From: a virus
Reading direction: 5' to 3' (one strand)
Virus record (IMG/VR): IMGVR_UViG_3300033145_002061
Span: 1 to 35,168 of that record
DNA length: 35,168 nt
In this document: positions 6,113 through 28,067 of the stretch, piece by piece
Layout: the number at the start of each line of letters is the position of its first letter
Numbering within the stretch: the first letter of the stretch is position 1
Notes under the pieces: generated by a model
Database searches by the model: none
Told to the model about the DNA's origin: nothing
Seen by the model: only the letters and a program-made list of their open reading frames with translations
Position numbers and translations under genes: made by a program

Positions 6113-6125
6113 AGTTACCTCCGTC

Positions 6126-6148: not shown

Positions 6149-6300
6149 TAATTCACCACAACCCCAATATGGCATCTTGGGCACTCACGACAATCCTCGG
6201 TATATATCTGTGGTGTACTCACCATCTTCTCCCCACAACGAGCGCATGTTAAGACTACTCTCTTTTGCTCTTTCTTCGTTACCGTTGAACTATCCTTCAT
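6148..6300 (-). CDS. zinc-finger-like protein, first gene of the leftward operon (50 aa)
   Basis: A 50-codon frame from ATG 6300, behind GGGAGGTGATACTG, to TAG at 6148-6150. It carries Cys19-x2-Cys22 and Cys37-x2-Cys40-x2-Cys43 in a basic background, as in small zinc ribbons. It is the first gene after the leftward promoter and the leader hairpin, a position often used for early regulators. Whether it is one is inference. Confidence 0.65.
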   Translation of the reverse strand: MKDSSTVTKKEQKRVVLTCARCGEKMVSTPQIYTEDCRECPRCHIGVVVN

Positions 6301-6344
6301 CAGTATCACCTCCCATCTTTAAAGTTATCGTTCGATGCAATAAA

Positions 6345-6376
6345 AATACCACCTTGAAGGGTATCAAGATGGTATT
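6345..6376 (-). terminator. intrinsic terminator/attenuator in the leftward leader
   Basis: Read on the minus strand: AATACCA, T, CTTG, an 8-base loop, CAAG, G, TGGTATT, then TTTTATT. This gives a stem of about 12 pairs followed by a U tract, the form of a rho-independent terminator. It lies between the leftward promoter (6475-6503) and the first gene (start 6300), so most early transcripts would stop unless the terminator is overcome. On the plus strand no U tract follows, so it acts leftward. Confidence 0.7.
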
Positions 6377-6382
6377 CATAAA

Positions 6383-6452
6383 TTCAAACCTTGAAATTAT
6401 AACCTTGCCTGTTGGCATTTGTTCGACCTTTGAAATTATAGGTTGCCTGTTT
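6383..6452 (-). repeat. two direct repeats in the leftward leader carrying palindromic-box variants
   Basis: On the minus strand two blocks begin AACAGGCAA and continue into TATAATTTCAA plus GGT and a partial TTGAA. They lie at about 6383-6415 and 6421-6452. Each contains a variant of the dispersed box (plus-strand form TTCAAnCyTTGAAATTATAA). They are transcribed from the leftward promoter before the leader terminator, so they could act as DNA operators or as RNA sites for anti-termination. Confidence 0.55.
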
Positions 6453-6474
6453 AGGTATATCAGTTTACAGAATG

Positions 6475-6503
6475 AGTATATCATATCGCGATTGAATTGT
6501 CAA
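6475..6503 (-). promoter_or_regulatory. leftward early promoter
   Basis: Minus-strand TTGACA (6503-6498), 17 bp spacer, TATACT (6480-6475), with TG one base before the -10 (extended -10). It points at the early operon. Both hexamers and the spacing are identical to those of the three rightward promoters. TTGAA half-boxes overlap the -35 region (6491-6511). Confidence 0.8.
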
Positions 6504-6512
6504 GGTTGAATT

Positions 6513-6525
6513 GAGACGAAGTCTC
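6513..6525. promoter_or_regulatory. small dyad between divergent promoters
   Basis: A perfect inverted repeat, GAGAC-GAA-GTCTC, in the space between the leftward (-35 at 6498-6503) and rightward (-35 at 6581-6586) promoters. It could be an operator half or chance. A TATAATTTCAAT half-box follows at 6538-6549. Confidence 0.35.
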
Positions 6526-6580
6526 CGACGCTGGCGATATAATTTCAATGTTTATTTTTGATAAAATGTTAATATTTAGC

Positions 6581-6609
6581 TTGACAAAGTACTTTCAATG
6601 TGATATACT
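6581..6609 (+). promoter_or_regulatory. rightward promoter 1
   Basis: TTGACA (6581-6586), 17 bp, TATACT (6604-6609), with TGA before the -10 giving an extended -10. The HNH/zinc-finger gene starts 22 bases downstream of the -10, with AAAGGAGG between. Confidence 0.8.
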
Positions 6610-6631
6610 TGTTTATAGAAAGGAGGACAAC

Positions 6632-6961
6632 ATGAAAGAGATTAATTTAATAGAAAAACAATGTAAGATATGTGATAGTATGTTTACTACAAAGGACAAC
6701 CGTCGGAAATTTTGTAGTGATAAATGTACTATCGAAAGTCGTAATAAATACCTGAGGGAACACTTTAGAACAACGCGACACGTCAAGAATAAGATAGTAA
6801 AGGGTAGTTGTCAAGTATGCGGTTTTACTGAAATAGTTGATGTACATAGAGAAGGATATAAACTATATCATCTATGTCCAAATCATCATAGGTTAGTAAC
6901 GAGGGGTAAACGGACGGTAGATAGTTATGGAATTGAACCGCTTGGTACTTTCACGTCGTAA
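6632..6961 (+). CDS. HNH-type nuclease/zinc-finger protein (109 aa)
   Basis: Start ATG 6632, seven bases after AAAGGAGG; the longer open frame to 6548 runs through the promoter. The N-terminal part has Cys11-x2-Cys14 and Cys28-x3-Cys32, a zinc knuckle (CKICDSMFTTKD, KFCSDKC). The C-terminal part has Cys60-x2-Cys63, VDVH (His72) and LCPNHH (Cys82, Asn84, His85, His86), the signature of a compact HNH/beta-beta-alpha-metal fold. It is the only gene directly behind rightward promoter 1. It could be a homing-type endonuclease, or a DNA-binding protein using the HNH fold. Catalysis is not proven, because small phage HNH proteins vary. Confidence 0.75.
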   Translation: MKEINLIEKQCKICDSMFTTKDNRRKFCSDKCTIESRNKYLREHFRTTRHVKNKIVKGSCQVCGFTEIVDVHREGYKLYHLCPNHHRLVTRGKRTVDSYGIEPLGTFTS

Positions 6962-6969
6962 GTTATGGG

Positions 6970-6987
6970 ATTATGGAAGTCCATAAT
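6970..6987. repeat. TTATGGA/TCCATAA inverted repeat
   Basis: ATTATGGA and TCCATAAT, two bases apart, form a perfect 8-bp dyad. It belongs to a set of nine TTATGGA/TCCATAA copies between 6970 and 7259. Confidence 0.7.
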
Positions 6988-7229
6988 TTGTGATATGTTA
7001 TAATCTGTTGATATGGTAGGGGTTATGTAAATTATGGAATTATGGAGTTTTTTCGACCATTTTTTGGGGTGTGTTGTAGTGTATATAGTATAATATATAT
7101 ACTATATATATTATATAACATATATAAAAGAATAAAGAAAGAGGAACCCTTCAGCGAGTGTCAGTACCCTCCATAATCCATAATTTCCATAATCATATCG
7201 CTTAACTTGTGTAATTGTAAAGGGTTATC

Positions 7230-7268
7230 GTAATTTCAATCGTTATGGAGTGTCCATAATTGAACTTA
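7230..7268. promoter_or_regulatory. split palindromic box with a second palindrome nested in it
   Basis: The half-sites GTAATTTCAAT (7230-7240) and AATTGAACTTA (7258-7268) match the dispersed box but are separated by an extra 17 bp. The insert creates a perfect TTATGGA-GTG-TCCATAA dyad (7243-7259), the repeat found elsewhere in this region. It lies about 45 bp upstream of rightward promoter 2. Confidence 0.6.
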
Positions 7269-7277
7269 TGACTTTTA

Positions 7278-7310
7278 ATACTCTCAAGAGAGTATATTTA
7301 TTTTAAAATA
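7278..7310. promoter_or_regulatory. two perfect palindromes upstream of promoter 2
   Basis: ATACTCTC-AA-GAGAGTAT (7278-7295) and TATTTTAAAATA (7299-7310) lie immediately upstream of the -35 at 7315. Their placement suits an operator controlling this promoter. Confidence 0.45.
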
Positions 7311-7314
7311 ATAC

Positions 7315-7343
7315 TTGACAAACACTATTTTATCATGTATACT
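7315..7343 (+). promoter_or_regulatory. rightward promoter 2
   Basis: TTGACA (7315-7320), 17 bp, TATACT (7338-7343). It drives the 76-codon gene starting at 7401. Hexamers and spacing are the same as the other three promoters. Confidence 0.8.
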
Positions 7344-7400
7344 TATATTGTAATAGTGATAATGTAGTATAACAGAATGAGAGGGGAGGTGAAAATAATC

Positions 7401-7631
7401 ATGGCGAAAAAGGTAATCGTTGCTAAATTGACGCACGACGGCAAGGAGTACATCGGTAAACGTGAAGTAAAGTTATACGACGGTACTGATGAACTATCTG
7501 CTGACGCAAATGTTGGTATGACCTTACGAGTACAGCGACAGATACGCGACGCTCTCAAGGTAAAGTATGGTATTAAGGTACTTACTTCAGGCGGTGTTGC
7601 GAAAGACCTCTCGGAAGTTGAGAGCGTCTAG
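7401..7631 (+). CDS. small hypothetical protein behind promoter 2 (76 aa)
   Basis: ATG 7401 is chosen, following GGGGAGGTGAAAATAATC; a frame from 7377 lacks a site. The protein starts with AKKVIVAKLTHDGKEYIG, has an acidic middle (LYDGTDELSADANVG) and a basic helix (RVQRQIRDALKVKYG). It forms its own transcription unit: a strong promoter upstream and a strong hairpin just downstream (7650-7680). A single highly expressed small gene in a control region could be a regulator or a host-takeover protein. No family recognised. Confidence 0.7.
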   Translation: MAKKVIVAKLTHDGKEYIGKREVKLYDGTDELSADANVGMTLRVQRQIRDALKVKYGIKVLTSGGVAKDLSEVESV

Positions 7632-7649
7632 TTTGTCGTAATTAGATAC

Positions 7650-7680
7650 TTGGGCGAAGTGTAACACTTACTTCGCCCAA
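7650..7680 (+). terminator. hairpin terminator after the 76-aa gene
   Basis: An 11-bp perfect GC-rich stem, TTGGGCGAAGT / ACTTCGCCCAA, with a 9-base loop, 18 bases after the TAG stop. The following TGTATTTATA is only moderately U-rich, so it may be a weaker terminator or a mRNA-stabilising end. Confidence 0.6.
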
Positions 7681-7739
7681 TGTATTTATACCCCTATCAC
7701 ACTATCAATTCACTACTTCAATACTTCCATCGCATCTAT

Positions 7740-7784
7740 CACACTTACCACACTTACCATAAGTACCATACTTACCATCGATAC
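7740..7784. repeat. 9-bp tandem repeats
   Basis: Units CACACTTAC, CACACTTAC, CATAAGTAC and CATACTTAC, followed by the looser CATCGATAC, run head to tail with exact 9-bp spacing. They resemble short iterons or a protein-binding array. Confidence 0.6.
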
Positions 7785-7892
7785 AGTATATGGATACTAT
7801 TATAATACTAATGAGGAAGTGTCGTGCCACCCCCCACCCTACCCCTGTAATACTATAAGGTGCTATATTATAACGCCAACCAAAAAATGAAA

Positions 7893-7914
7893 GTTCAATC
7901 CTTGAAATTATAAC
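7893..7914. promoter_or_regulatory. palindromic-box variant
   Basis: GTTCAATCCTTGAAATTATA followed by AC, the reverse orientation of the box (TTCAAnCyTTGAAATTATAA form). It is flanked by AAGTT/AACTT, which widens the dyad. Confidence 0.55.
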
Positions 7915-8087
7915 TTTTTGGGGATAGTGAAACTGACACTCTATATATAGGTAAGGCTTCGCCTTTGAAGATACCACACGATTGCACACTTGACCGCCTT
8001 GCTCGTTTAGGCTCGCAATCGACCATTTCCCTATGGCGACCTTACACACCCCTTAAATCGCCTTAAACACCCCTCTTTTCCAATAAC

Positions 8088-8107
8088 TTCAACCTTTGAA
8101 ATTATAA
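8088..8107. promoter_or_regulatory. palindromic-box variant upstream of promoter 3
   Basis: TTCAACCTTTGAAATTATAA, ending 22 bases before the -35 of promoter 3. Together with the copies at 6383-6402, 6421-6440 and 7893-7914 it defines a 20-bp variant confined to the control region. Confidence 0.55.
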
Positions 8108-8129
8108 AAAATTTATTTTCAAAACACCC

Positions 8130-8158
8130 TTGACAAACGACTAAAATTATGATATACT
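8130..8158 (+). promoter_or_regulatory. rightward promoter 3, candidate late promoter
   Basis: TTGACA (8130-8135), 17 bp, TATACT (8153-8158), with TGA before the -10. It is the last promoter seen before the virion module. Its transcript covers a 57-codon gene and then meets an intrinsic terminator at 8464-8516. Confidence 0.8.
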
Positions 8159-8268
8159 CATATTAGAGAAATACGACCATTCACCAATTTAAGATTATAA
8201 CTTGAATGATTAAACTTATAACTTTTAAAATTGAATGGTTGTAACCCAAGTGTTTAAGGAGTACTGGT

Positions 8269-8442
8269 GTGTCAATTGATTGGTTACCTGAGTTTGGGAA
8301 GAAGTTTGAAGGTAACGCTATGATAGCTAACCTGAAAAAGGAAGGCTTCCATGGTAAAGTTATTGTTAATTTCTGTAACGGCAGTCCCAACACCACTCAC
8401 CTCGAATGGTGTGTGAAGCCGTATATGGAATGTGGTAAGTAA
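8269..8442 (+). CDS. small protein in the late leader (57 aa)
   Basis: A 57-codon frame starting at GTG 8269, seven bases after AAGGAG, ending TAA 8440-8442. It begins with SIDWLPEFGKKFEG and has an HGKVIVNFCNGSP strand and three cysteines in all. It lies between promoter 3 and the leader terminator, so it is the only protein made from the short transcript. By position it could be the late regulator or an accessory. No family recognised. Confidence 0.6.
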   Translation: MSIDWLPEFGKKFEGNAMIANLKKEGFHGKVIVNFCNGSPNTTHLEWCVKPYMECGK

Positions 8443-8463
8443 GTAGGACAATACTAAAAAGGT

Positions 8464-8516
8464 AAGCCTACTCAGACGACATCTTTATGTTGGAGGTGTT
8501 GTTGGGTAGGCTTTTT
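8464..8516 (+). terminator. intrinsic terminator before terminase
   Basis: AAGCCTAC pairs with GTAGGCTT, with further pairing inside the long loop (GACGACAT with GTGTTGTT, including wobbles). TTTTT follows directly. It ends 18 bases before the small-terminase start, so transcription of the virion genes from promoter 3 must pass it. Confidence 0.75.
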
Positions 8517-8534
8517 AATTGTGGGGAGTGAGAG

Positions 8535-9050
8535 ATGGAACATTCAGAGTGTACTAAAGAACAATATCCCGATAAGATTAACCTCCGACACCGAGCACTT
8601 ATGCGTCGACTTGTGGCTGGTATGACACTAACACAGGCGTGTGAGGACATAGGATATAGTTTGCAAAGAGCGTCGGTTATCGTTAACAGCCCCCTATTCA
8701 TAGCGGAGAAGGATAAGATGGCTAATGATGTGGAGAAGGGATTTGTGGATGCTGAAGCTGGTAGGTTAACGAGTGACCCCACTCGTGCGGCGTTAGATAA
8801 GGCGAAGGAGAAGGCGGTTAAGACTCTACATGGAGCGTTGGATGACAATAGTGGGAATGTTAGGGTGAGTGCGGCGAAAGACATTCTTGATAGAACGGGT
8901 TATGCGAAGGAAGATAAGGTTAATGCTAATGTGTTGTTGGAGCCGAGTCAAGGTTTACTGGATATGTTAACTAGGGTGATGGGAGGTAAGAAGAATGGAA
9001 GCAGTGGGAACCCCTCAAATACAGAGGGTAAGGACAGTCCTATTAAGTAG
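8535..9050 (+). CDS. terS: terminase small subunit
   Basis: A 171-residue protein directly upstream of and overlapping the large terminase. Residues 18-60 form a helix-turn-helix-like region (RHRALMRRLVAGMTLTQACE, then SLQRASVIVNSPLF), as in DNA-recognition domains of small terminases. Later the ...NVRVSAAKDILDRTGYAKED segment matches the oligomerisation/C-terminal pattern of this family. It recognises the packaging start and regulates the large subunit. Start ATG 8535 follows GGGGAGTGAGAG. The call rests on synteny plus HTH. Confidence 0.8.
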   Translation: MEHSECTKEQYPDKINLRHRALMRRLVAGMTLTQACEDIGYSLQRASVIVNSPLFIAEKDKMANDVEKGFVDAEAGRLTSDPTRAALDKAKEKAVKTLHGALDDNSGNVRVSAAKDILDRTGYAKEDKVNANVLLEPSQGLLDMLTRVMGGKKNGSSGNPSNTEGKDSPIK

Positions 9051-10506
9051 GTTCAGGAATTTCTGTCAGACTTTCACAGAACCTGAATACTATGACGATA
9101 CATTTCACGGTCCCCTTTGTGACTTCCTTCAAGATGCTGGACCCAACAAGATGATTATACTTCCTCGTACCTTTCTTAAAACTACTATAGTAGGATTGTA
9201 CTTGTTGTGGAGGAGTGTTAAAGATACGACAATTAGAGAGTTGATTTCCTCCAACACCACTCCCAACGCTCAGAAGACAGTTCGTACTCTTCGTGGTATT
9301 ATAGAGAATAATACTGACTTTCAACTGTTTTTTCCAGAAACAATCCCCAATTTTTCTAAGGTTAGATGGTCGGACTCATGTGCTTGTTTACAGAGGAAGG
9401 TAGACCATCCTGAAGGTACATTTGAGAGTGCTGGTGTAGGAGCTAACATCATTCGACGCCATTTTAACTTGATATGGGAAGATGATACCGTCGCGCCGAA
9501 GAAGGATGAGTTGAGTGGGGATGAGTTGATGCCAAGTAAAGATGACATAGAGAAGGCGGTTGGGTTCCATAAGTTAACAGTACCTCTGTTGATAAATGAG
9601 GAAGATGAGAGGATTATAACTGCAACTAGGTGGGCATCCTATGACTTAGTCAGTTATGTGTTGGAGAATGAGAAGAACTTTGCTGTGTTTAACCAAAAAG
9701 CATATAAGGATGAAGCACATACAGAGGGAAGATATAAGAGGTTTAGTATAAATAGATTGAATAACATAAGGATTGCTATGGGTACTTACCTCTTTACTAT
9801 GCTATACCTCAATCAACCTCTGGCTAAGGAGTTCATGGCATTTAATCCTGATTGGTTTCGATATTACGAGGATGGAGATGAAAATATGCCCGACGAGGGA
9901 GAGGTAGTTGTAACCTTAGACCCTGCAGACCCACCCACGGGGAAGAAAACTCAAGATTATTCAGCCATCCTATCCTGTAAACACACTAAGAAAGGTATGT
10001 TTGTCAGGCGTTATCGCAGGAAGAGGTTGAGTGATAAGAAGATGATTGATGAAACTTTCGATGTATGTGAGATGGATGGGGCGGTGAAAATTAGGATTGA
10101 AACTAATCGTTACGCACACCTTGAGGCTGCTTTCCGTGAGGAGATGAAGAAGAGGGATAAGTACTATATAATAGAGACGGTTAAAGGTAAAAGTAATAAA
10201 GAGGGGCGTATTAAGAACCGTTTGTCGCCGTTGTTTGAGAACGGTGTGATATGGTTTAAGAGGAATATGGCAGAACTAGAGTCGGAGTTAACCACTTTCC
10301 CTTATGGGAAACATGACGACCTTATAGATGCATTAGCGTGGCAGGTGAGTGGGAGGACAACTACCGAGTATACTAAGGTAGAGGTTAGGAAGCCAATGCC
10401 CAAGCGTATGACCTTCACACTCGACCAAATTAGGGAGAGTTGTAGACATAAGAGTAAGGCACCCTATCCTTTCCAAGTGCAAATGGAAGATGTGATAGCG
10501 GGATAG
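8995..10506 (+). CDS. terL: terminase large subunit
   Basis: A 503-residue packaging motor. The N-terminal ATPase has the deviant Walker A LPRTFLKTTI (56-65), Walker B FNLIWEDD (157-164) and the coupling motif ATRW (210-213). The C-terminal RNase H-like nuclease has Asp309 (VVVTLDPADP) and the Asp441/Asp442 pair in GKHDDLIDALA. The ATG at 8995 follows GGGAGGTAAGAAG and overlaps the small subunit by 56 bases. It acts at the portal to fill the head with DNA. All key motifs are present, so it should be active. Confidence 0.93.
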   Translation: MEAVGTPQIQRVRTVLLSRFRNFCQTFTEPEYYDDTFHGPLCDFLQDAGPNKMIILPRTFLKTTIVGLYLLWRSVKDTTIRELISSNTTPNAQKTVRTLRGIIENNTDFQLFFPETIPNFSKVRWSDSCACLQRKVDHPEGTFESAGVGANIIRRHFNLIWEDDTVAPKKDELSGDELMPSKDDIEKAVGFHKLTVPLLINEEDERIITATRWASYDLVSYVLENEKNFAVFNQKAYKDEAHTEGRYKRFSINRLNNIRIAMGTYLFTMLYLNQPLAKEFMAFNPDWFRYYEDGDENMPDEGEVVVTLDPADPPTGKKTQDYSAILSCKHTKKGMFVRRYRRKRLSDKKMIDETFDVCEMDGAVKIRIETNRYAHLEAAFREEMKKRDKYYIIETVKGKSNKEGRIKNRLSPLFENGVIWFKRNMAELESELTTFPYGKHDDLIDALAWQVSGRTTTEYTKVEVRKPMPKRMTFTLDQIRESCRHKSKAPYPFQVQMEDVIAG

Positions 10507-15251: not shown

Positions 15252-16238
15252 GTGGCAGCACCTACAATGACAGAGACTCTAAATACGATGTATACCACCA
15301 CTTGGTACCTTCGCAGGAAAGAGATTATTGACCAGGTGTTTTTGGCTACTCCTTTCTGGTATCTTCTAAGTAAGAAGGGCAAGAGGAAGACCCAGACGGG
15401 TGGTAGGAGTATAGAAATACCTTTACAATATGCGAAGAATGAGACCGTAACTTTCATAGGGAAAGGTGGAACTGTTGAGATAGCTGCAACAGACCCTCTA
15501 ACGGTCGTGCATTGGAAGTGGAAATATCTAACAGGTCACATCGTTAGGTACTTTACTGAGATGCAGATGAATAGAGGGAAGGCGCAGATTATCAATAAGG
15601 TTAATGCCGATATTGATAACTTGCAGTCCAGCTTAATTGACCAGTTGGAGACAAGCTTGTTTAGTGATGGTACTGGTGATGCTAACTTAGCTATTGATGG
15701 GTTAGCGAATATCATTAAGGAAGCACCAGCAACTGGAACAATTGGTGACCTGAATGCAGCGACGTATTCTTGGTGGAGGAATAACTATAAAGATATGTCA
15801 GGTGAAGCAGCATCCATATACCTGCGCAAGAGGATGAACACCATGTTCAACGATTGCGGAAAGTATGGTGAAGGTGTTAGGAGGTTCCCTGACATAGTGG
15901 TCTGTGCTCAGGATGTACATGAAATGTATGAGAGTGAAGCGCTTGAAATCTCCAGAATTAACATTGGGGATAGGAAGTTAGCAGACTTAGGTTTCGGAGA
16001 TATAGCTTATAAAGGCAGACCGATAACTTGGTCACCCAGCTGTCCAGACGGTTCAATGTACTTCTTGAACACGAGTGTGATGGAATGGGTTGCTGACCCA
16101 ATCGAGAACTTTACTCTTGGGGAGTGGTTGCCCATAATTAATCAGCCGCGAGATGTGATTGCACACACCATGACCGTTGGAAACTTGGTGACAAGTAACC
16201 GAAGACGTCTTGGTGTTATTTTTGATATAGCCGAATAG
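15252..16238 (+). CDS. major capsid protein, HK97-fold
   Basis: A 328-residue protein starting at GTG 15252, behind GAGGAGTAAAAA. It begins TTTWYLRRKEIIDQVFLATP and contains GGRSIEIPLQYAKNETV, a WKWKYLTGHIVRY strand, INKVNADIDNLQSSLID and GDANLAIDGL. This looks like the coat protein type that I know from short-tailed and some siphophage genomes. It builds the icosahedral shell. A hairpin straddles its TAG stop, and another lies just downstream. Confidence 0.85.
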   Translation: MAAPTMTETLNTMYTTTWYLRRKEIIDQVFLATPFWYLLSKKGKRKTQTGGRSIEIPLQYAKNETVTFIGKGGTVEIAATDPLTVVHWKWKYLTGHIVRYFTEMQMNRGKAQIINKVNADIDNLQSSLIDQLETSLFSDGTGDANLAIDGLANIIKEAPATGTIGDLNAATYSWWRNNYKDMSGEAASIYLRKRMNTMFNDCGKYGEGVRRFPDIVVCAQDVHEMYESEALEISRINIGDRKLADLGFGDIAYKGRPITWSPSCPDGSMYFLNTSVMEWVADPIENFTLGEWLPIINQPRDVIAHTMTVGNLVTSNRRRLGVIFDIAE

Positions 16239-17689: not shown

Positions 17690-18186
17690 TGAATGGACAG
17701 CAAGGTAAGAAGGAGCAACAACCCTTTATAGCGGAGGCTATGGACCCACTCGGTGCGGACTCTAACTTGTTGGCAAAGATGATGTTTGCCGAGAACGCTC
17801 CAGGGGGACCTGAGGCTTGGGCAAACATGGGGAATGTAGCGCTTAATAGGTTGAAGAGTGGTAAGTATGGAAAGACATTAAAGAGTGTGATAATGGGGAT
17901 GTCGAGTGCGATTAAGACTAAGTCGAAACAGTGGGAGAAGGCGAATAAGGCTGAATTTAATGATTATGAGCAGCGAGCATTTAATAAGATGGCTGAGGTT
18001 GCTGATAAATTGGTTGGGGGACAGATAGAGGATACGGTGAAGGGAGCCACTCACTTCGAGAACCTCAACCGCTATCCCCTTCCTTATTGGGCTAAAGATA
18101 TGGACGCAGTCCACAGAGATAGGGGAGACCCTAGGTGGAGTCAGACTTACTTTAAACCTAGGTCTGGTGTAGAGGAGATGAAGTAA
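17689..18186 (+). CDS. SleB-like cell-wall hydrolase (165 aa)
   Basis: Matches the Hydrolase_2/SleB pattern: LLAKMMFAENAPGGPEAWAN with probable catalytic Glu35, then NVALNRLKSGKYGKTLKSVI and GATHFENLNRYPLPYW. Such enzymes cleave the glycan strands of peptidoglycan. Placed among head and tail genes, it may be carried in the virion to open the cell wall during entry, or be the lysin. No signal peptide or export signal is seen, so release would need a holin or virion packaging. Confidence 0.75.
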   Translation: MNGQQGKKEQQPFIAEAMDPLGADSNLLAKMMFAENAPGGPEAWANMGNVALNRLKSGKYGKTLKSVIMGMSSAIKTKSKQWEKANKAEFNDYEQRAFNKMAEVADKLVGGQIEDTVKGATHFENLNRYPLPYWAKDMDAVHRDRGDPRWSQTYFKPRSGVEEMK

Positions 18187-18878
18187 TGGCAATGGATAGA
18201 GAGGACATGAGAGATGAAGTAAGGGAGAACATTAAAAGGACGGTTGACGGGGTTAGTAACGCTCGTATTAATAGATGGTTAAATTGGGGGCAGGGTTACT
18301 TAGCCGACCTCCATACATATGAGGAGATGCACTCCAACGACACCTCTAAAGCATGTACGGAGAGTAGTGTAGTGGTGACTTGGCCTACTCGGATGAAGGA
18401 TTTGTATAGTGTTACCGTCCAGGATGGGGCTAGGTCTCGCAAGCTTATATATGTTCCTGCTAGAAGCTTTGATAAGGTGGTACCTCGTCCAGCTACCTAT
18501 ACGGAAGGTTTGCCTAATTGGTATGTTGACTATGGTTCTACCTTTGAAGTGTTTAATATACCTGACGACGATTACCCTTTAGTGATTAGGTGTAGTGTAT
18601 TCCCTATCGATTTCGCTGATGATGACGCGGAGTCAACCCTTCTTAGGAAGGACGCCCTTATGTGTGGGATGGCGACGGTATTTGGATTTTACACACTAAG
18701 GGAGTTGGAGGATGCAACCTATTGGGGGCAGCAAGTAGTCCCTCCCTTATATGAGGCTAGTTTAACAAGTGACCATAGTGCTGAGGATTGGGTTCCTATT
18801 GCTAGAGGTTTCCAATCACAACCGACAGCATTGATGGGACAGTGGTGGACTTCACCCTTTACGGGTAGGAGTGTGTAA
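18186..18878 (+). CDS. putative head-tail adaptor protein (230 aa)
   Basis: A 230-residue protein with a helical N-terminus (EDMRDEVRENIKRTVDGVSN, RINRWLNWGQGYLADL) followed by beta-rich parts (SSVVVTWPTRMKDLYSVTV, TFEVFNIPDDDYPLVI). The N-terminal W-x-N/W-G-Q-x-Y-L-A pattern is typical of adaptor/connector proteins of short-tailed phages, which bind under the portal. Its stop codon lies inside a palindromic box. Assignment is by pattern and position. Confidence 0.6.
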   Translation: MAMDREDMRDEVRENIKRTVDGVSNARINRWLNWGQGYLADLHTYEEMHSNDTSKACTESSVVVTWPTRMKDLYSVTVQDGARSRKLIYVPARSFDKVVPRPATYTEGLPNWYVDYGSTFEVFNIPDDDYPLVIRCSVFPIDFADDDAESTLLRKDALMCGMATVFGFYTLRELEDATYWGQQVVPPLYEASLTSDHSAEDWVPIARGFQSQPTALMGQWWTSPFTGRSV

Positions 18879-18922: not shown

Positions 18923-19312
18923 ATGGCTCTCACGAAACGGTCGATGATAGGTGGGGCATACTATAAAGGATATAAGTTAACAGTAAATGCTGGCGCTGGA
19001 GATTATGTATTAGATATGACTCTCGCAGCTAAGGCGTGTGCAGCTAACGGAATATCGGTTACGCCCGACATGTATGGTGCTGGTGATTACTTTAAGTTGG
19101 AACATTTAGACGCGGATGGAAATGTACTAGCAAGACTTGCCGAGACGATTTTCAACGCAGGTAAGAATGTAACCCTAATCTTTGACTTCCCCTCTCTCGA
19201 ACTTCTCGACGCAGGGCATAAGATGAGATTAACATACACGAATGTTGCTGGGACAGCGATGAGTGTATATACCATATTAGAGAGACTAACCACAAAAAGT
19301 GGAGGTGCATAA
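18923..19312 (+). CDS. beta-rich virion-module protein (129 aa)
   Basis: A 129-residue protein with GYKLTVNAGAGDYVLDMTLA, YFKLEHLDADGNVLARL, VTLIFDFPSLELLDAG and MRLTYTNVAGTAMSVYTIL, alternating in a way that suggests a small beta-sandwich. Probably a virion component. It starts behind TAAAGGAGAAGCGCG just after a palindromic box. Not recognised. Confidence 0.6.
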   Translation: MALTKRSMIGGAYYKGYKLTVNAGAGDYVLDMTLAAKACAANGISVTPDMYGAGDYFKLEHLDADGNVLARLAETIFNAGKNVTLIFDFPSLELLDAGHKMRLTYTNVAGTAMSVYTILERLTTKSGGA

Positions 19313-19815
19313 TGGGACAGGGTGCGAGTGGTGGTGGAGGGAGTGAAACTATGGAGGTACTTAAAGAGGGTAAGATTTCCTCTTTAGTGGTACATGATGT
19401 CACAGTTATTAAGAAGGAGATAAGGGTTGAGGTACCGAAGTTTGTGGAGAAGATTGTGGAGGTACCTAAGTTTATAGATAGAGCGGTGGAGGTTACTGAT
19501 GTAAGGGTTAATGAAGTCGTTAGAGAAGTTCAGGTACCTAAATTTGTAGAGAAGAAAATAGAGGTTGAGGTACCTGACTATAAGAAAGTGGAAGTTAAGG
19601 ACGTAACCATCAAAAGGGTGGAAGTACCGGTTGAGGTACAACATGTGATTGAGAAGACTAAAATTGTGGAGAAGGTGTTTGAGGTTAAGGTACCGAAACT
19701 TGTGGAGGAGATAATTAAGGTACCCCGCATCCAATACGTCCCTACCGAGGTGGAGAGAGTGGTTTGGAAGGACGTACCAAGAGAGAGGTGTAGTAAGTGT
19801 GGGAAGGAGACTTAA
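19312..19815 (+). CDS. EVPKFVEK-repeat protein (167 aa)
   Basis: After a Gly-rich start, residues 38-155 are built from short repeats with Val-Pro at regular places: VEVPKFVEKI and VEVPKFIDRA in exact 10-residue tandem (39-58), then VQVPKFVEKK, VEVPDYKKV, VEVPVEVQ, VKVPKLVEE, IKVPRI and YVPTE. The end carries Cys160-x2-Cys163. The repeats resemble the Val-Pro-rich motifs of alveolins/articulins (cytoskeletal proteins of protists), but relationship is not claimed; it may be convergence. Probably forms an extended fibrous rod in the virion. GGTACC recurs in the DNA at the VP codons. Confidence 0.7.
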   Translation: MGQGASGGGGSETMEVLKEGKISSLVVHDVTVIKKEIRVEVPKFVEKIVEVPKFIDRAVEVTDVRVNEVVREVQVPKFVEKKIEVEVPDYKKVEVKDVTIKRVEVPVEVQHVIEKTKIVEKVFEVKVPKLVEEIIKVPRIQYVPTEVERVVWKDVPRERCSKCGKET

Positions 19816-20082
19816 ATGCCTATTAGGATAGAACACGCTCCAGGTATAACGGTAGCTAATGCGAAGAAGTACCAAACATCTACACCCGCAACCGATGGGG
19901 CGACCACAGTATTCACCACACCTGACACATATGAAGCAGGTACACTTGAGGTGTTCAGAGACCAAGCCGCCCTTCAAGAGGGGATTGGGAAGGATTTTAC
20001 GGAGACATCTTCAACAACATTCACACTAGCATCAGCTCCAGATGCAGATGAGGATTTATGGGTACATTACGTAAAGGCTTAA
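19816..20082 (+). CDS. small tail/fibre-associated protein (88 aa)
   Basis: An 88-residue protein: GATTVFTTPDTYEAGTLEVFRD, then GKDFTETSSTTFTLASAPDADEDLWVHYV. This domain (T-L-E-V-x-x-N/D, D-F-T-E-T, T-F-T-L, A-P, L-W-V-x-Y) is common in phage tail-fibre and baseplate-type proteins as a beta-sandwich. It overlaps the next gene by 25 bases. Confidence 0.65.
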   Translation: MPIRIEHAPGITVANAKKYQTSTPATDGATTVFTTPDTYEAGTLEVFRDQAALQEGIGKDFTETSSTTFTLASAPDADEDLWVHYVKA

Positions 20083-21788
20083 GTTTACTACTATCTCTCA
20101 TGTTAGTTTGTAGCGTGGCATGGGGGGCGGACACTAAGGCTAAGAGAGTTCGTACTAATACCGGCAGTTTCGATGGTCATTTAGGAGTGGGAGATACCAC
20201 CGTTCAAAAATCACTCGACACCTTAGATGACATAGTAGCAGGTGGTGATGATGTATCTATTGATGGAGCGGGAGTGACAAACCCCGACTTCGTCTCCACA
20301 GGGGATGTAGACTTCACGGATACAGCAAACACAATTACAGGTGATATAAATGTGATTGGAGGTAATACTTTAATTGTAAGTGCTAATTCTATCTATACCA
20401 CTATCGGTTTAGCTATGGGTTCTGCAGCAGCAGGGGATACTATATTGGTTGTGGAAGGTGTTTATGATGAAGCGGTTGTCTTCTCTCAAAACCTTCTTAC
20501 TCTAAAAGCTTTCGGCTCCATTAAGAATACTTCAATTACCCAAGCGACAGGGACGGTAGTAAGTTTTGGCACGAAGGCAGGTTGTGTATTAGATGGATTT
20601 AGTGTAAATCTATCGGCTGCTGATAATGCAGATGATTTGGCAATTTACTCTAATAACGAAGATGCCACTGTTTATAACTACGTTAAAAATTGTAACATCA
20701 CAGCCGACACCGCGGGAGGTGCTATCGCTTTAATGGCGGTTGAGGTAGATGACGGCAATTTCAGGATGGAGAATACCGACGTAAATATAGAGCAGAGTAA
20801 CGACCATGCTTGTTATGCCTTTGATATTAGGGGGGCGCATACACATATATTCGATAACGTTCGGCTTACAATGGTACATAATCCTGGTGCGGCGAAGGGT
20901 GGGCGAGGACTTCATTCGGATGGAACTATTGCTTATTTTAGGAACTGTACCGTTAACATTACTGGTAACTGGACACTTGCAGGTGCAGTTTATGCGATAT
21001 ATGGGGCTGCAGGGACTACTTATGAGGAAAATAATACGGTCAGTATAGTCTCATCATCCACAGGCACAGCCACTGCTCTTTATACTAACGACACAACGAG
21101 TTATGTTACGGGAAATACCGTCCACGCTCATGTAGTTGGCGACGACGCCGTATGGGGTGCCTTTGCTGGCGGGACGGATGCTTATGTTGCAGGGAATAAT
21201 GTGTCGGGTGATGGGGTGTTGGTAGATGGTGTAACAAATCTTTATAGAGGAGGTAATGTTGTAAATGGAACTTTAAATGCAGATACTATTACCGAAGGTG
21301 GTAATGCGGTCTATAGCTCTGGTGAGACCCCTAGCGGTGAGTTAGGCGGTACTTACGCTAACATTACAGTTGACTCAGGTATCCATGATGACGAGTATGT
21401 GGAATTGGAAGACCCTCATTTATCAGCAGCTACAATAATCGACCCCGATGTCGTTCAAGCTGTGATAGACGCTGTTACCATACTCCCCATAGAAGCGGAG
21501 ATGTATCCTAATGGTATTACTATTACTGATTGTGGGATTAAGACTGCTGAGTCAACAACCTTCTCTGTGGTGTTTGAAGAATGGACAGCCCCAGGAACGC
21601 ATGCCCACGATTTAGAGACGGTGGCTACAGCAAACACGCTTGAAGCAGAAGATGATGCAACAATAGGCGATGGCTCTGGCGGAAGTGCAGGGGATTGTGA
21701 TGTAGGGAGTATTATCAAGGTTGACCTCCCAGAAACCGATACAGATGAGTTGAGTGTGTGGATAGTTTATACGATAAATCAAAGTTGA
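20058..21788 (+). CDS. signal-peptide-bearing beta-helix fibre or spike-like protein (576 aa)
   Basis: The N-terminus (KGLSLLLSLMLVCSVAWGA) is a standard Sec signal peptide: basic start, hydrophobic core and small residues before a cut near residue 24. The central part repeats short strands with N-x-T-V/N-I-T-G and asparagine ladders (NNTVSIVSS, GNTVHAHVV, GNNVSGDG), the look of a right-handed parallel beta-helix such as in tail spikes or pectate lyases. Placed with fibre genes. A secretion signal on a virion protein is unusual. ATG 20058 follows GATGAGGATTT. Confidence 0.65.
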   Translation: MGTLRKGLSLLLSLMLVCSVAWGADTKAKRVRTNTGSFDGHLGVGDTTVQKSLDTLDDIVAGGDDVSIDGAGVTNPDFVSTGDVDFTDTANTITGDINVIGGNTLIVSANSIYTTIGLAMGSAAAGDTILVVEGVYDEAVVFSQNLLTLKAFGSIKNTSITQATGTVVSFGTKAGCVLDGFSVNLSAADNADDLAIYSNNEDATVYNYVKNCNITADTAGGAIALMAVEVDDGNFRMENTDVNIEQSNDHACYAFDIRGAHTHIFDNVRLTMVHNPGAAKGGRGLHSDGTIAYFRNCTVNITGNWTLAGAVYAIYGAAGTTYEENNTVSIVSSSTGTATALYTNDTTSYVTGNTVHAHVVGDDAVWGAFAGGTDAYVAGNNVSGDGVLVDGVTNLYRGGNVVNGTLNADTITEGGNAVYSSGETPSGELGGTYANITVDSGIHDDEYVELEDPHLSAATIIDPDVVQAVIDAVTILPIEAEMYPNGITITDCGIKTAESTTFSVVFEEWTAPGTHAHDLETVATANTLEAEDDATIGDGSGGSAGDCDVGSIIKVDLPETDTDELSVWIVYTINQS

Positions 21789-21794
21789 GGATTT

Positions 21795-22181
21795 ATGAAC
21801 CGATTGCTTAGTAGTGTATTACTGGTTTTGGTGATGGTTACGAGTTGTTATGGTGAGAAGTGCTATGTCTTTATTGATAAGAATAGTTCTGAAACGGCAA
21901 AAGAGGTAGGGCAGAATGAACGTGGAGATATTGTTACTATCTTATCAGCTACACCACAACATAAGCCCACAAGAACGGAACTACAAACATACAAAATAGT
22001 TGTGGTAGATTTAACGCTGGAAGAGCAAGAAAGTTTACTTGAACCAGATGGGAAATATGCGTGTGTAAGGGAAAGAAAGCGAAAGATAGACGTAGGTAAC
22101 CTAGTCGCAAAACAAGAGGAAGAAATTGATAAAGCTACCCTTTTTAATACTGTTATTGATAAATCTGTTCTTAGCCCCTAG
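21795..22181 (+). CDS. secreted or lipoprotein-like protein (128 aa)
   Basis: Starts MNRLLSSVLLVLVMVTSCYG. The hydrophobic run followed by VTSC fits either a lipobox (cut before Cys18) or a normal signal peptide. The rest contains NERGDIVTILSATPQHKPTR, YKIVVVDLTLEEQESLL and a charged C-terminus. Small G-D-I-V-x-I-L proteins of this sort occur near phage fibre genes. The function is unknown; if a lipoprotein, superinfection exclusion is one possibility, but not shown. Confidence 0.6.
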   Translation: MNRLLSSVLLVLVMVTSCYGEKCYVFIDKNSSETAKEVGQNERGDIVTILSATPQHKPTRTELQTYKIVVVDLTLEEQESLLEPDGKYACVRERKRKIDVGNLVAKQEEEIDKATLFNTVIDKSVLSP

Positions 22182-23382
22182 TTTCGCCGCAACAGAATTT
22201 GTATCTAATATAAATGGCGGAGCGGTGGAGGATTATAATAGTCTTTCAGCATGGGAAGCCGCTATGGATAATATGGGGAATTTAACAGACGGCACAGTTG
22301 CTACTGGTAACTGGGATGCACAGTCAGGTGTAATAGCTGATAACGCAAATGTAACATGGAACGCTGGGGCTGATGATGGAAAACTTATCCATATGACAGA
22401 CGCAGGAGCTACAGGAACATATCTAGTAATGGGAGACGACGCAGGAGATATTACCAATCTTGCCGACGATGATATTATAAGCGATGGCACAAATACCATA
22501 ACGGTAAACGGAACACCTGATAGTGCTATTGTAGTAGCCGAGTGTTATGATGACGATGGGGCATTAGATGAAGGTAGTTTTGGGATAAACATAGCTACGA
22601 CAAGTGCAACCAATTATGTGATTATACGAGCCGCTGTTGGAGAAAGACATGATGGAACGCTACCTGATGGAACAGCAGGAGATGGATTTGTTTGGATACG
22701 AGATGGTAATGATTACTTTGTTCTTCAAAATAATTTTACAGTTTGGGAGTGGATTGCTATTAATCTTTCTAGTTCAGAGGGTGGCAACAACTTAGGCTGT
22801 GGTGCTGATAGTTTAATAATAAGAAATAACATAATTATGGAAACGACAGATAATGGGGCAGACTATGGAATGCGTTTTGGTGCTCAAGCATCCTCCCCAC
22901 TTAATTTTTGTCTAAACAATATTGTTATAGGTGCATTTGATGTAGCTTGTATAAGTTGGCTTGCTCAAATAGAGGTTTACAATTGTACGACTTATGGAGG
23001 GGCGATTGGTTTTAAAAGAGAGGGTTGGCTTACAGTTGTAAAAAATTGTGTTGCTGTTGGGAATGGAACGGATTTTTCTATAACTCATGGAGAAACCACT
23101 GAAGATTATAACTGTTCTGAAGATGCTACCGCCGCAGGAGCTAATTCAATTACAACAGGCTCCGACACCGACTTTGTTAATGCTGGTACAGATATGCATC
23201 TTGCCGCTGGAGCAGTCCAAATAGATGATGGTTTAGATTTGGTTACAACACCGAGTGGCGTAGAAATAGACATAGATGGTAGGGACAGGGACGCAGAAGG
23301 TGACACTTGGGATATGGGGGCAGATGAATATGTAGCTGCTGTTCCAACAGGTGCTCCTCAAGTAATACTAATAAGCGGTTAG
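22126..23382 (+). CDS. secreted beta-helix protein with anchor-Q-like C-terminus (418 aa)
   Basis: Starts at TTG 22126 behind AGAGGAAGAAA, overlapping the previous gene by 56 bases. The N-terminus (LPFLILLLINLFLAPSFAA) is a clear signal peptide with an AFA-type end. The body has Asn-rich beta-helix turns (LIIRNNIIMETTDNG, FCLNNIVIGAFD). The end carries DFVNAGTDMHLAAGAVQIDD, DIDGRDRDAEGDTWDMGADEY, the pattern seen at the C-terminal end of many secreted bacterial beta-helix proteins. May come from a bacterial secreted protein. Its role in the phage is unknown. Confidence 0.65.
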   Translation: MIKLPFLILLLINLFLAPSFAATEFVSNINGGAVEDYNSLSAWEAAMDNMGNLTDGTVATGNWDAQSGVIADNANVTWNAGADDGKLIHMTDAGATGTYLVMGDDAGDITNLADDDIISDGTNTITVNGTPDSAIVVAECYDDDGALDEGSFGINIATTSATNYVIIRAAVGERHDGTLPDGTAGDGFVWIRDGNDYFVLQNNFTVWEWIAINLSSSEGGNNLGCGADSLIIRNNIIMETTDNGADYGMRFGAQASSPLNFCLNNIVIGAFDVACISWLAQIEVYNCTTYGGAIGFKREGWLTVVKNCVAVGNGTDFSITHGETTEDYNCSEDATAAGANSITTGSDTDFVNAGTDMHLAAGAVQIDDGLDLVTTPSGVEIDIDGRDRDAEGDTWDMGADEYVAAVPTGAPQVILISG

Positions 23383-24115: not shown

Positions 24116-24626
24116 ACTCGGTTTTAGCTCCAAACGCGCATTCGACCCTTATTACCAAAAGAGGAAGGATGCCATTAAAGAGATGATGGAGAGAGCTAAT
24201 TTAAGGGGGGAGAAGGTAGAAGAGGTAGGGATGAAACTCCTCGAAATCCCTGACCTCGAACACCTCCTCGACGGTAAGAGAGCAGTGTTAAAGACACCCT
24301 ACAAGTTTAGGATGGAGACGGGGGAGATAATTACCGTCCCTGTAGGTTTCATCACGGATGGAGCTAGTATTCCCAAGTTTGTTTGGAGCATAACTGGAGG
24401 ACCTTGGGGCGAGTATTTATATGCTGCAATTCCTCACGATTATCTCTATTACACGAAGAAGATGACGAGGAAGGGTGCTGATAAAGTATTCTTAAAGATA
24501 ATGGTATACCTTGGAGTGAGTGAGTGGAAGTATAGAATAATGCATAGGGCGGTAAGAGATTGGGGTTGGATACCTTGGAATAAAAAGGGAGGTAATGATA
24601 ATGGCTGTACCAACAGTAGCTCATAA
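24105..24626 (+). CDS. DUF1353 protein (173 aa)
   Basis: The C-terminal half has the DUF1353 signature: VPVGFITDGASIPKFVWSI, then YAAIPHDYLYYT, ADKVFLKIMVYLGV and WKYRIMHRAVRDWG. The DGAS, HDYLY and AVRxWG blocks are all intact. This family is frequent in phages near lysis genes; a peptidoglycan-related activity has been suggested but not proven. The N-terminal 70 residues are extra and charged. Confidence 0.8.
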   Translation: MKIKLGFSSKRAFDPYYQKRKDAIKEMMERANLRGEKVEEVGMKLLEIPDLEHLLDGKRAVLKTPYKFRMETGEIITVPVGFITDGASIPKFVWSITGGPWGEYLYAAIPHDYLYYTKKMTRKGADKVFLKIMVYLGVSEWKYRIMHRAVRDWGWIPWNKKGGNDNGCTNSSS

Positions 24627-25428
24627 TGAAGCGACACCAGCAGGGACAGATTATATAAGAGAGGGCGATGATAGAATAAGGGAGTTTAAGACTCAAGTTA
24701 GAGAGGTGATTGCGGTTGACCACAAGATGGATAGTGCAGGGAGTGGCGCGACTTGGGGGATGCACAAGTGGATTACCTTCATTGAGGCGGCTGATATAGG
24801 GAGTGGAACGGCAGGGTTGCCTATACTTGGCGCACAAACAATAGGCGGATTACCGGAGTTGTTGTTTAAGAGTGAGACTGACGAGAGTGTGCAGCTAACA
24901 CAGGATGGACACTCAATAGCGACCGAGACCCCTGATGACACGGCGCCTACGGAAGATGAAGGGATTGCGAATAAGAAATATGTGGATGGTCATGGGATGG
25001 TGCAAGTTGTTAACACTTTGTATGTGACAAAGTCTGTTCATACCACTCAGATACCTGACGACGATACTATTCCTCAAATAACTGAAGGCGAAGAGGTTAT
25101 GACTCGTGCTATCACACCAACGAGTGCAACCAATAAATTGCTTATTAGAGTTGTTGTCCATTGTGCTAGTGGACAACAAGTAGGTCTTGCACTTTTTCAA
25201 GATGCTACAGCCGGTGCTTTAGCCGCGACATTCAGTTATTGGATAACTTATGGAACACAAATAGTTTTAGATTATTATATGGATGCGGGAACAGTAGTTG
25301 AAACTACATTTAGAGTGAGAATAGGAATGATGGGTGCGGGTACAGTAACAGTTAATGGTGAGGGAGCTAATAGAGTATTCGGGGGTGTTGTACCTTGTAG
25401 CATAACAATAACGGAGATAAAGGTATAA
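24601..25428 (+). CDS. tail-fibre-like protein (275 aa)
   Basis: ATG 24601, behind GGGAGGTAATGATA, is preferred over 24595. The N-terminus (EATPAGTDYIREGDDRIREF) and the mid-section (TETPDDTAPTEDEGIANKKYVD) match the modular joints of tail fibres, where A-x-K-K-Y-V-D blocks recur. The C-terminal 110 residues are beta-rich and end in SITITEIKV, like receptor-binding heads. Likely part of the host-recognition apparatus. Confidence 0.65.
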   Translation: MAVPTVAHNEATPAGTDYIREGDDRIREFKTQVREVIAVDHKMDSAGSGATWGMHKWITFIEAADIGSGTAGLPILGAQTIGGLPELLFKSETDESVQLTQDGHSIATETPDDTAPTEDEGIANKKYVDGHGMVQVVNTLYVTKSVHTTQIPDDDTIPQITEGEEVMTRAITPTSATNKLLIRVVVHCASGQQVGLALFQDATAGALAATFSYWITYGTQIVLDYYMDAGTVVETTFRVRIGMMGAGTVTVNGEGANRVFGGVVPCSITITEIKV

Positions 25429-28067
25429 TGGCTAAGACTATAAAAATACCTAAGCAAAGAAGGAAGTACTACCCACTCTACGGTCTTGATAAAGGTTTAG
25501 ACTATAGTATGGGCTCCACCATGATTGGTGATACTTTTACACCGAAATGTCATGAGGTAGACTTTCGTAACAGCGAGATATCGAAGACAAAGGGGACGAA
25601 GTACTTCGCAGGCACAGATACCGTCCCCATCCTCGACACTGTTATGAGTATGTATCACTACTACCTAATGTCGGGTACTGAGAAGTTGGTGGTGCATACA
25701 ACTACAAATGTATATGGGTACAATGCCACCACTAAGCTGTTGGAGAATATAACTAGAGGGGAGATAGTGGAGAACTGCGAGGATAGATGGAGTCCTTGGG
25801 ATGTGAATACATCTATGTTGTTGTATGCACCAGATAACGCATTAGAGGAATATCCATGGATTGATACTGCAACTGGAACGGGAGTGGCTACTAGAGAAGC
25901 TGATACTGATTGTCTTAATGGGTATAGATTAACTCTTTCAAGTTCTTCCATCGCAGCTACTGATAGTATACATTTTGAGCATGCAGCTGTGGGTACGCCA
26001 TGGGAAGATAGTGTGAGTAGTGCAAATGGGTATGTTATAAAGTTTAGGATGAAAGTTGTGAGTAGTGGAACTAGTTGGTGTCATGCTATAAGATTTAGAG
26101 ATGGAGGGTATACATGCATTCTTGTTATCGCTAATGATAAGATAGAAGTTGGCTCCACTTACATCTCTGAAGCTACACAATCATATGCAATGGATACTAC
26201 AGATGCATACCATGTTTATGAGATAGTAGTTAAGACAACTTCACTTAAGGTTTACGTAGATGGAACTCTACGCGTGGAGGGAACACTTGATGCTGTTGAT
26301 GCTAACAAGGACTTGAGGTGGGGCGATATATCAGAGGTAGCAAATACAGGTGGAGTAGCACACTGGGATTACATCACTTACGCTATCACGGATGATACGC
26401 GTTACCAAACGCTGACGAATATAGATGCAACAACACCGAGGAAGGGGACGTATTCTTCTAAGGTAACGATAGAGGCAGCTTTCACAACTGGGGTAGCTGC
26501 TTATGAAGACTTTGCTTCAGACGACTTTACCGCCGCAACACATCTACATTTTTTCATTAAGAGTGATATAGCTACAGACGCGAATGACTTGCAAATCATT
26601 CTTGGAGATACAACAGCTGGAGGTACTCCAGTTGGGGGAAGTGATGGTGGACGCTTTAACGTCCCTGCTTTAACTGCAGAGGTGTGGAAGGAAGTTAGTA
26701 TTAAGATGACAACTCCTGGAGATTTAACTACTGTTGAGTCTGTGGCGTTATATGTGAAAGTAGACAATGGAGCTCAAGTGGTGCATATAGATGATGTGAT
26801 GGTCACCATTGAAACTACGGGAGATGAAGATGATATAATTACTTCCGAAGTGATGAATGACCTTTATGTGTATAGTAACAACATAGTTCCCCTCATGTTC
26901 TGGGATATGTCGACCGCAACTACAGCCATCCTATATGCTGGTTGTACACTGGCAGCGAAGTGTATAAGGAGGTTTGGGGAACGACTGTGTTTGTATGGAG
27001 TTACTAGTACCTATCCACAGAGGGTACAGTGGACAGAGGTAGGAGGGATTACAGCGGTTACACCTGTAGCGGAAGATTGGACAGACCCGGGTTCGGGGAA
27101 CACCGACCTTGAGTCAACAATGGGTACCGACCACATTCAGACGGCAGAGAAACTAGGGAATTATATGGTTATCTACGGTGAGCGTACGATTGTTCTCCAA
27201 GATTATGTTGGAGTGGTTGATGACCCCTTCGCCTTCTACACTAGAGTAAGTGGTATAGGGTTGGCAGCGGAACGCGCTATTGTTAACTTAGGAAATAGAC
27301 ATATCTTCCTTGGATGGGATGATGTTTATGAATATAAAGGTGGGAAGGAAGCAATCCCTATTGGATGGAATATAAAGAAGGAACTGTTCAGCATCATTGA
27401 CGCTCAATACATAGGTCGTTCCTTTATGGTGTATAATGGAGTGAAGGACGAGTTACGGTTATACGTCCCCACCTCTGGTAACACCTTACCCAACATCTAC
27501 TTCTCCCTTAATTTAAAGACAAAAAGTTGGTCGAGAGGGACTAGAGCACATACAAGTTCTGGTCACTACACAAGAGCGAGTGCGGATACTTGGGCATCTA
27601 TAGGGAGTGGCGCGACCGACACTTGGAATAACCAGAGTATAAGGTGGGATAGTTTAATACTTCAAGCTCTCGCACCCATCGACTTATATGGTGGAGCTAG
27701 TGGAGTGGTTACATATGGGGATGAGACGGAGTTAAACTTGGCGGGAAGTGCAATTGATGGATATTTTGAAACTAAAGACTTCGTGACGGGTGATGGGTAT
27801 AGGAGGACGACCACCAATTGGATGGAGCTCACCTTTGAGGCTAAAGGGGATAAGTTGTACATCAGGTATAGTTTAGACTTAGGGGTAAGTTGGTCTGAAG
27901 CTAAGATATTTACTTTAACAGATGAGTGGAAAAAGTACAACTATGACTTTGAAGCAACCTCGCCTCAAATACGCTTCAAAATACGTAATGGCAATGTGAG
28001 TGAAGAGTTTAGTGCTAGACAGTTAGAGATAGGATACATAGAAGCGAGTGATAGAGGGGTGAAGTAA
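25428..28067 (+). CDS. beta-propeller nozzle-like tail protein with inserted jelly rolls (879 aa)
   Basis: Residues 15-120 and 475-750 have beta-propeller-like blades: NDLYVYSNNIVPLMFWD, RRFGERLCLYGV, TYPQRVQWTEVGG, KLGNYMVIYGER and RHIFLGWDDVYEYKGG. This is the pattern of nozzle proteins (T7 gp12-like) that extend the tail tube of short-tailed phages. Between them lie about 350 residues resembling two beta-sandwich domains: a LamG-like one (about 150-320) and a carbohydrate-module-like one (about 330-465). These may bind surface sugars. A final beta-sandwich follows the propeller. Confidence 0.7.
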   Translation: MAKTIKIPKQRRKYYPLYGLDKGLDYSMGSTMIGDTFTPKCHEVDFRNSEISKTKGTKYFAGTDTVPILDTVMSMYHYYLMSGTEKLVVHTTTNVYGYNATTKLLENITRGEIVENCEDRWSPWDVNTSMLLYAPDNALEEYPWIDTATGTGVATREADTDCLNGYRLTLSSSSIAATDSIHFEHAAVGTPWEDSVSSANGYVIKFRMKVVSSGTSWCHAIRFRDGGYTCILVIANDKIEVGSTYISEATQSYAMDTTDAYHVYEIVVKTTSLKVYVDGTLRVEGTLDAVDANKDLRWGDISEVANTGGVAHWDYITYAITDDTRYQTLTNIDATTPRKGTYSSKVTIEAAFTTGVAAYEDFASDDFTAATHLHFFIKSDIATDANDLQIILGDTTAGGTPVGGSDGGRFNVPALTAEVWKEVSIKMTTPGDLTTVESVALYVKVDNGAQVVHIDDVMVTIETTGDEDDIITSEVMNDLYVYSNNIVPLMFWDMSTATTAILYAGCTLAAKCIRRFGERLCLYGVTSTYPQRVQWTEVGGITAVTPVAEDWTDPGSGNTDLESTMGTDHIQTAEKLGNYMVIYGERTIVLQDYVGVVDDPFAFYTRVSGIGLAAERAIVNLGNRHIFLGWDDVYEYKGGKEAIPIGWNIKKELFSIIDAQYIGRSFMVYNGVKDELRLYVPTSGNTLPNIYFSLNLKTKSWSRGTRAHTSSGHYTRASADTWASIGSGATDTWNNQSIRWDSLILQALAPIDLYGGASGVVTYGDETELNLAGSAIDGYFETKDFVTGDGYRRTTTNWMELTFEAKGDKLYIRYSLDLGVSWSEAKIFTLTDEWKKYNYDFEATSPQIRFKIRNGNVSEEFSARQLEIGYIEASDRGVK

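Follow-up and report, generated by a model that had tools for sequence, protein, structure and literature searches.

Three consecutive genes in the IMG/VR virus record IMGVR_UViG_3300033145_002061 lie within a late structural block and encode products that begin with predicted Sec signal peptides (SPs), raising the question of what a tailed phage would export from this part of its genome. The window analysed here is the whole 35,168-base record, which contains 115 open reading frames (ORFs). The explanation favoured, held tentatively and falling a little short of probable, is that the three genes form a distal fibre module encoding a fibre-like protein, a small domain (S) and a beta-helix tailspike-like protein (B), and that these products are exported by Sec, stored in the periplasm and joined to virions at lysis.

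All three ORFs described in the initial annotation are present on the plus strand. Gene 1 (20058..21788) encodes a 576-residue fibre-like protein with a putative SP (20058..20129) reading MGTLRKGLSLLLSLMLVCSVAWGA/D, where the slash marks the predicted cleavage site; the scorer's own cut falls at A21, and the ribosome-binding site (RBS) is TGAGGATTTATG. The first 86 or so mature residues (20130..20387) contain the fibre motif FDGxLxxxDxTVQxxLxTLD, identified from matches to relatives. Gene 2 (21795..22181) encodes 128 residues, with a predicted SP (21795..21854, MNRLLSSVLLVLVMVTSCYG/E) followed by S, while the 418-residue product of gene 3 (22126..23382), which starts with TTG, consists of a predicted SP (22126..22188, MIKLPFLILLLINLFLAPSFA/A) and the right-handed beta-helix B. 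SPs were called with a home-made scorer of the n-, h- and c-regions, using a cut-off of 5. The Sec signals proposed for genes 1 to 3 are borne out by scores of 6.7, 6.5 and 6.9, the top three among the window ORFs, the next being 4.4. When the scorer was checked on 37 genes from an annotated 49-kb region of E. coli K-12, all six exported proteins scored 5.6 to 8.4, but a membrane protein that is not secreted reached 6.6; by itself the scorer therefore does not fully distinguish SPs from N-terminal membrane helices. The mature parts of the three products reach a maximum 19-residue hydropathy of only 0.2 to 1.7, with no membrane-helix-like segment or membrane anchor. Start sites are supported by TGAGGATTT upstream of the ATG of genes 1 and 2 and by AGAGGAAGAAA upstream of the TTG of gene 3; mis-annotated starts were considered and rejected, as no RBS-bearing alternative start lies near the mature N-termini. 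Export of the three products appears very likely. The second product had been suggested to be a lipoprotein on account of a VTSC lipobox; its cysteine is not conserved, relatives ending instead in VFA/D, CFA/D, SFA/Q or ALA/Q. Six environmental loci (L008, L004, L024, L036, L002 and L006) have type I sites and no lipobox at this position. Since the lipobox is not common to the relatives, an ordinary type I site (CYG/E) is likelier.

The signals were also compared among relatives. S, a domain of about 100 residues, and B form a recurrent phage pair, either adjacent or fused, found in the window, in 45 further adjacent or near-adjacent pairs and in 9 fusions; loci were collected with a beta-helix profile (80 loci) and a small-domain profile (29 loci, the contigs partly shared). 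In about 40 environmental phages both proteins start cytoplasmically (M-AELL... and M-ATEVV...), whereas these N-termini stand directly behind an SP with a type I site in 19 records, one of them the window. S accordingly begins M-AELLV... in the SP-minus form and SFG/AELLI... or YP/AELLV... in the SP-plus form, and B begins M-ATEVV... as opposed to SFA/ATEFV... or SYS/ATEF.... Cleavage by signal peptidase would be expected at these sites.

The SP state is also concordant across the module, which supports the earlier proposal of a unit. When S and B are separate genes lying side by side, both carry an SP in 5 cases and neither does in 39. L008, the only apparent exception, has an S whose start is an evident SP (MRYILLTTTLLLISTKLVFA/DK) scoring 4.6 against the cut-off of 5. 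In nine SP-plus loci S is fused to B and each fusion has a single SP. An SP is present on the large upstream gene in 13 of 15 SP-plus cases versus 4 of 23 SP-minus cases (p 4e-5), and at least two SP genes in a row are seen in 19/19 SP-plus loci versus 11/86 SP-minus loci, a distribution far from chance. The switch therefore appears to be all-or-none, in that neighbouring S and B agree and the upstream fibre genes mostly follow.

A second fibre family with the same arrangement turned up when the scorer was run on the cultured Myxococcus phage Mx8, in which p64 has a predicted SP followed by TRNSVGTYTLPGGNPVV. Mx9 p14, annotated as a putative tail fiber protein, is arranged likewise, the SP of both proteins preceding RNSVGTYTLPGGNPVV, and in phage BUCT555 the corresponding fibre N-terminus stands at a plain start, MPRNGSGTYLLP. 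The motif is readable in 65 of 80 environmental relatives; one of these is Mx8 itself and the rest start M[PSA]RN with no SP, which indicates that the graft is rare and exact, and present in a laboratory phage. Both proteins are annotated, and no study of either as an exported protein was found in the literature searched. A comparison of Mx8 with Mx9 and of L089 with L090, aimed at selection on the SP, yielded few differences. Near p64 in Mx8 (L118), p66 (38169-38822) scores as signal-bearing and p67 (38819-39367) has a weak SP score of 4.1; by eye, a GDSIMFG stretch in p67 recalls SGNH hydrolases.

Genes 1 and 3 have no match in family libraries or among INPHARED phages, and S and an L002 protein likewise have no INPHARED homologues. 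Relatives in IMG/VR show a like gene order, with an SP and fibre-like gene, an SP and small domain, and an SP and beta-helix. Residues 24-110 of the gene 1 product match a phage protein that lacks an SP (L003, E 1e-10) and the SP-plus fibres of L090 and L067, its C-terminal third matches SP-plus L002 and also L003, and a related motif stands directly behind the SP in L051, L067 and L090. Gene 2 is a divergent, weak member of the S family (profile E 7e-6); on the S tree it falls with L008, where the pairing is clear. The S structure model has a predicted local distance difference test (pLDDT) score of 79; no convincing structural match to it was found, which does not show a new fold. The beta-helix character ascribed to gene 3 is supported by a right-handed beta-helix model (pLDDT 78), whose matches at Z about 17-21 include polysaccharide lyases and phage tailspikes, the tailspikes being at about 17. 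Window gene 3 has no match to NF041518 (choice-of-anchor Q surface proteins), and among the proteins tested only the L002 homologue passes (29.2 versus a cut-off of 25 bits).

The SP-bearing module is not confined to one phage lineage. The window terminase large subunit has matches in 4 of 20 SP-plus records, of which a pair are near-identical contigs, and the SP-plus records have dissimilar terminases and differing tail types. A single lineage was rejected as an explanation, since searches with terminase, adaptor, nozzle, tape-measure and sheath proteins gave mixed cores. Parsimony on the S tree places at least eight changes of SP state, with low support, and the starred branches force only one; the clearest switch is between the close pair L092 (plus) and L062 (minus), with support of 93. 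The geometry of the S-B junction suggests how a signal may arise. Genes 2 and 3 overlap over 22126..22181 on the plus strand, so that 56 of the 63 SP bases of gene 3 are shared with the 3′ end of gene 2; the codon for the first mature residue of gene 3 comes 8 bases past the gene 2 stop, about where an SP-minus start is expected. The start of B in SP-minus phages lies, with few exceptions, no more than a few bases from the S stop and the overlap is mostly at most 1 base, whereas in SP-plus phages B starts 4, 4, 23, 23, 38 or 56 bases inside S (p 2e-4). From this geometry, the gene 3 signal appears to have been gained by backward extension of its frame over the preceding gene. Overlaps among all three genes had been noted initially; the one between genes 2 and 3 stands, while genes 1 and 2 are separated by a 6-base gap.

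The genes themselves are best read as phage genes rather than captured bacterial ones. A scan of 84,980 bacterial and archaeal genomes, made with the S domain and not with the beta-helix family, recovered S in a single genome, as against more than 50 distinct viral members; this lone copy is SP-less, lies on a metagenome-assembled genome contig and has an S start identical to that of S on viral contigs. Like the signals, the exact graft site and the module-wide concordance, this phage origin can be read from the sequences.

Taken together, these features suggest a route by which exported fibres could still reach virions. A Sec SP would have been grafted onto an otherwise ordinary phage protein at its original start position. 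Late in infection the host Sec machinery would transport the proteins to the periplasm, where cleavage by signal peptidase I would restore the normal fibre N-terminus and the fibres would fold and trimerise apart from the heads and tails assembling in the cytoplasm. Exported fibres could meet virions only at lysis, because the inner membrane is removed then, and they may at that point attach by their N-termini. Tail fibres usually bind the virion via the N-terminus (PMC10386132). The mature window proteins keep the N-termini of their SP-less phage homologues, and conservation of this usually virion-binding end behind the SP suggests that attachment still matters. The choice posed in the initial annotation between virion fibre and exported protein may therefore be a false one.

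Several points weigh against this explanation. Cysteine numbers are not raised in SP-plus relative to SP-minus proteins (medians 6 vs 8 for B and 1 vs 1 for S), so a sign of oxidative-folding adaptation is absent and disulfide adaptation was rejected. No precedent for Sec export of trimeric fibres was found, a protein restricted to the periplasm might just as well act at the cell surface, and the observed concordance could also come from modules simply moving as units. Export and cleavage are predictions from sequence, and attachment at lysis is a proposal with weak support. It is plausible, though less likely than not, that there is a class of tailed phages whose receptor-binding apparatus is built beyond the inner membrane and joined to heads and tails at lysis, and that SPs have been repeatedly added to or lost from whole modules, partly through overprinting of the upstream gene.

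The main rivals to attachment at lysis are decoys and depolymerases; surface display, capsule binding and superinfection exclusion, all raised in the initial annotation, are possible roles for exported products. As secreted decoys or blockers, the exported fibres would never join virions and would bind the receptor on the infected cell or on debris, stopping superinfection or the re-adsorption of progeny to dead envelopes. Export and receptor-binding type folds are both expected of such proteins, and export of the whole fibre block is accounted for; however, the normally virion-binding N-terminus, needless for a pure decoy, is conserved directly behind the SP in several families, and the SP-plus loci read showed no second, SP-less S-B copy next to the exported pair. 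A role in lysogeny is unlikely, as integrase and resolvase genes are absent from the window and from 18 of the 19 SP-plus environmental records searched, a weak indication given that these are fragments. We consider decoys unlikely overall, though they deserve serious attention. A secreted depolymerase, by which an exported beta-helix enzyme would degrade host capsule or exopolysaccharide from within and aid the exit of progeny from the cell or biofilm, is suggested by the likeness of the gene 3 model to polysaccharide lyases and depolymerase tailspikes. A beta-helix is no proof of an enzyme, and export of the fibre-like gene 1 product and of the small domain would be left unexplained; this reading is improbable. 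Still less probable is that the hydrophobic N-termini stay uncleaved as membrane anchors or virion-attachment peptides: the scorer does accept some N-terminal membrane helices, but small residues at -3 and -1, at 18-28 residues, recur in unrelated genes and the fusion point coincides with the place where the SP-less form starts. The initial suggestion that the genes were recently captured from a bacterial locus for secreted proteins is very improbable, because S is almost confined to viral contigs and SP-less in its one bacterial or archaeal occurrence, and SP-less viral versions of S and B are the commoner ones. In its favour, bacterial secretomes commonly include beta-helix proteins, the L002 homologue has a match to the choice-of-anchor Q domain of bacteria, and the model is similar to Rhombotarget A.

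The window is assigned to a short-tailed phage from its terminase large subunit (8995..10506; phrog_38, E 9e-63), major capsid protein (15252..16238; phrog_9953, E 1e-49), SU10-type podovirus adaptor (18186..18878; PF24175 SU10_adaptor, E 2e-10) and an SP-less, nozzle-like virion structural protein of 879 residues (25428..28067; phrog_3287, E 8e-37), all on the plus strand. Mx8, BUCT555 and other cultured phages have distantly related capsid proteins. Genes 1 to 3 lie between the adaptor and phrog_3287 genes, on the same strand as these and the capsid gene. Directly upstream, and overlapping gene 1 by 25 bases, an SP-less 88-residue protein (19816..20082, plus strand) resembles virion proteins through a weak match to phrog_25416 (virion structural protein, E 0.006) and has relatives in L092, L067 and L102. 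Elsewhere in the block, a 277-residue protein (24595-25428) has a C-terminal Pgp3 domain (PF05475, E 3e-6), known from a Chlamydia plasmid protein, and a 167-residue protein (19312-19815) contains imperfect V/E/K-rich repeats (KFVEKxVEVPK) and has no family match above the cut-off.

Further SP-bearing proteins lie upstream of the fibre block in L002 (7730-8494), L086 (4614-5057) and L092 (3459-3950). By eye they resemble small virion proteins, so the trait may extend beyond fibres; PHROG matches were weak or absent for those tested. Inside the SP-plus fibre block of L002, a 388-residue multi-spanning protein (6567-7733) resembles O-antigen ligases or polymerases by eye and could change the host surface. 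A 972-residue protein with an SP and fibronectin type III domain follows the S-B fusion in L004 (10909-13827) and L007 (6665-9583); these two phage contigs are almost identical and come from different metagenomes. In L005, a 527-kb phage, a 1357-residue collagen-like protein with GPTGATG repeats (5798-9871) adjoins SP-less beta-helix genes.

Assembly of tailed phages is taught as a cytoplasmic process. Export signals are found here on the fibre genes of about twenty otherwise different phages, which vary in their capsid and packaging genes, and of two cultured Myxococcus phages. Such coordinated SPs imply either that fibres are assembled in the periplasm or that the adsorption machinery has a secreted counterpart; either outcome, if true, changes how phage receptor-binding proteins are recognised, and Mx8 brings the question within reach of a laboratory host. 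Phage proteins of diversity-generating retroelements lack SPs, the absence of which is treated as a sign of phage origin in annotation (PMC6199706), and most cellular targets carry SPs or membrane domains (PMC8144416). SP-bearing fibre genes could consequently be filed as bacterial. No description of SP-bearing fibre modules was found in the literature searched, which excluded most subscription journals.

Among known systems, the window module resembles the tailspikes and tail fibres of tailed phages, including those of cyanophage Pam1, CBA120 (TSP2) and Fri1 (gp49), in its right-handed beta-helix, its place in a late structural module, and its N-terminus conserved for attachment with variable distal parts. 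To our knowledge these lack an SP and are assembled in the cytoplasm, whereas the whole window block carries Sec signals. The coat proteins pIII and pVIII of filamentous phages share with the window products Sec signals on virion proteins, putative ones in the window; they remain anchored in the inner membrane, where they assemble, unlike the products of this tailed double-stranded DNA phage, whose mature forms have no membrane segment. The T4 antiholin RI is likewise a tailed-phage protein with a cleavable SP (PMC8385771), but it is a lysis regulator and not part of a fibre module. Although Mx8 p64 and Mx9 p14 belong to a different fibre family in which the S-B pair is not recognised, they share with the window an SP placed directly before a fibre N-terminal domain whose first residue is M in every readable relative, and Mx8 shares a distantly related capsid.

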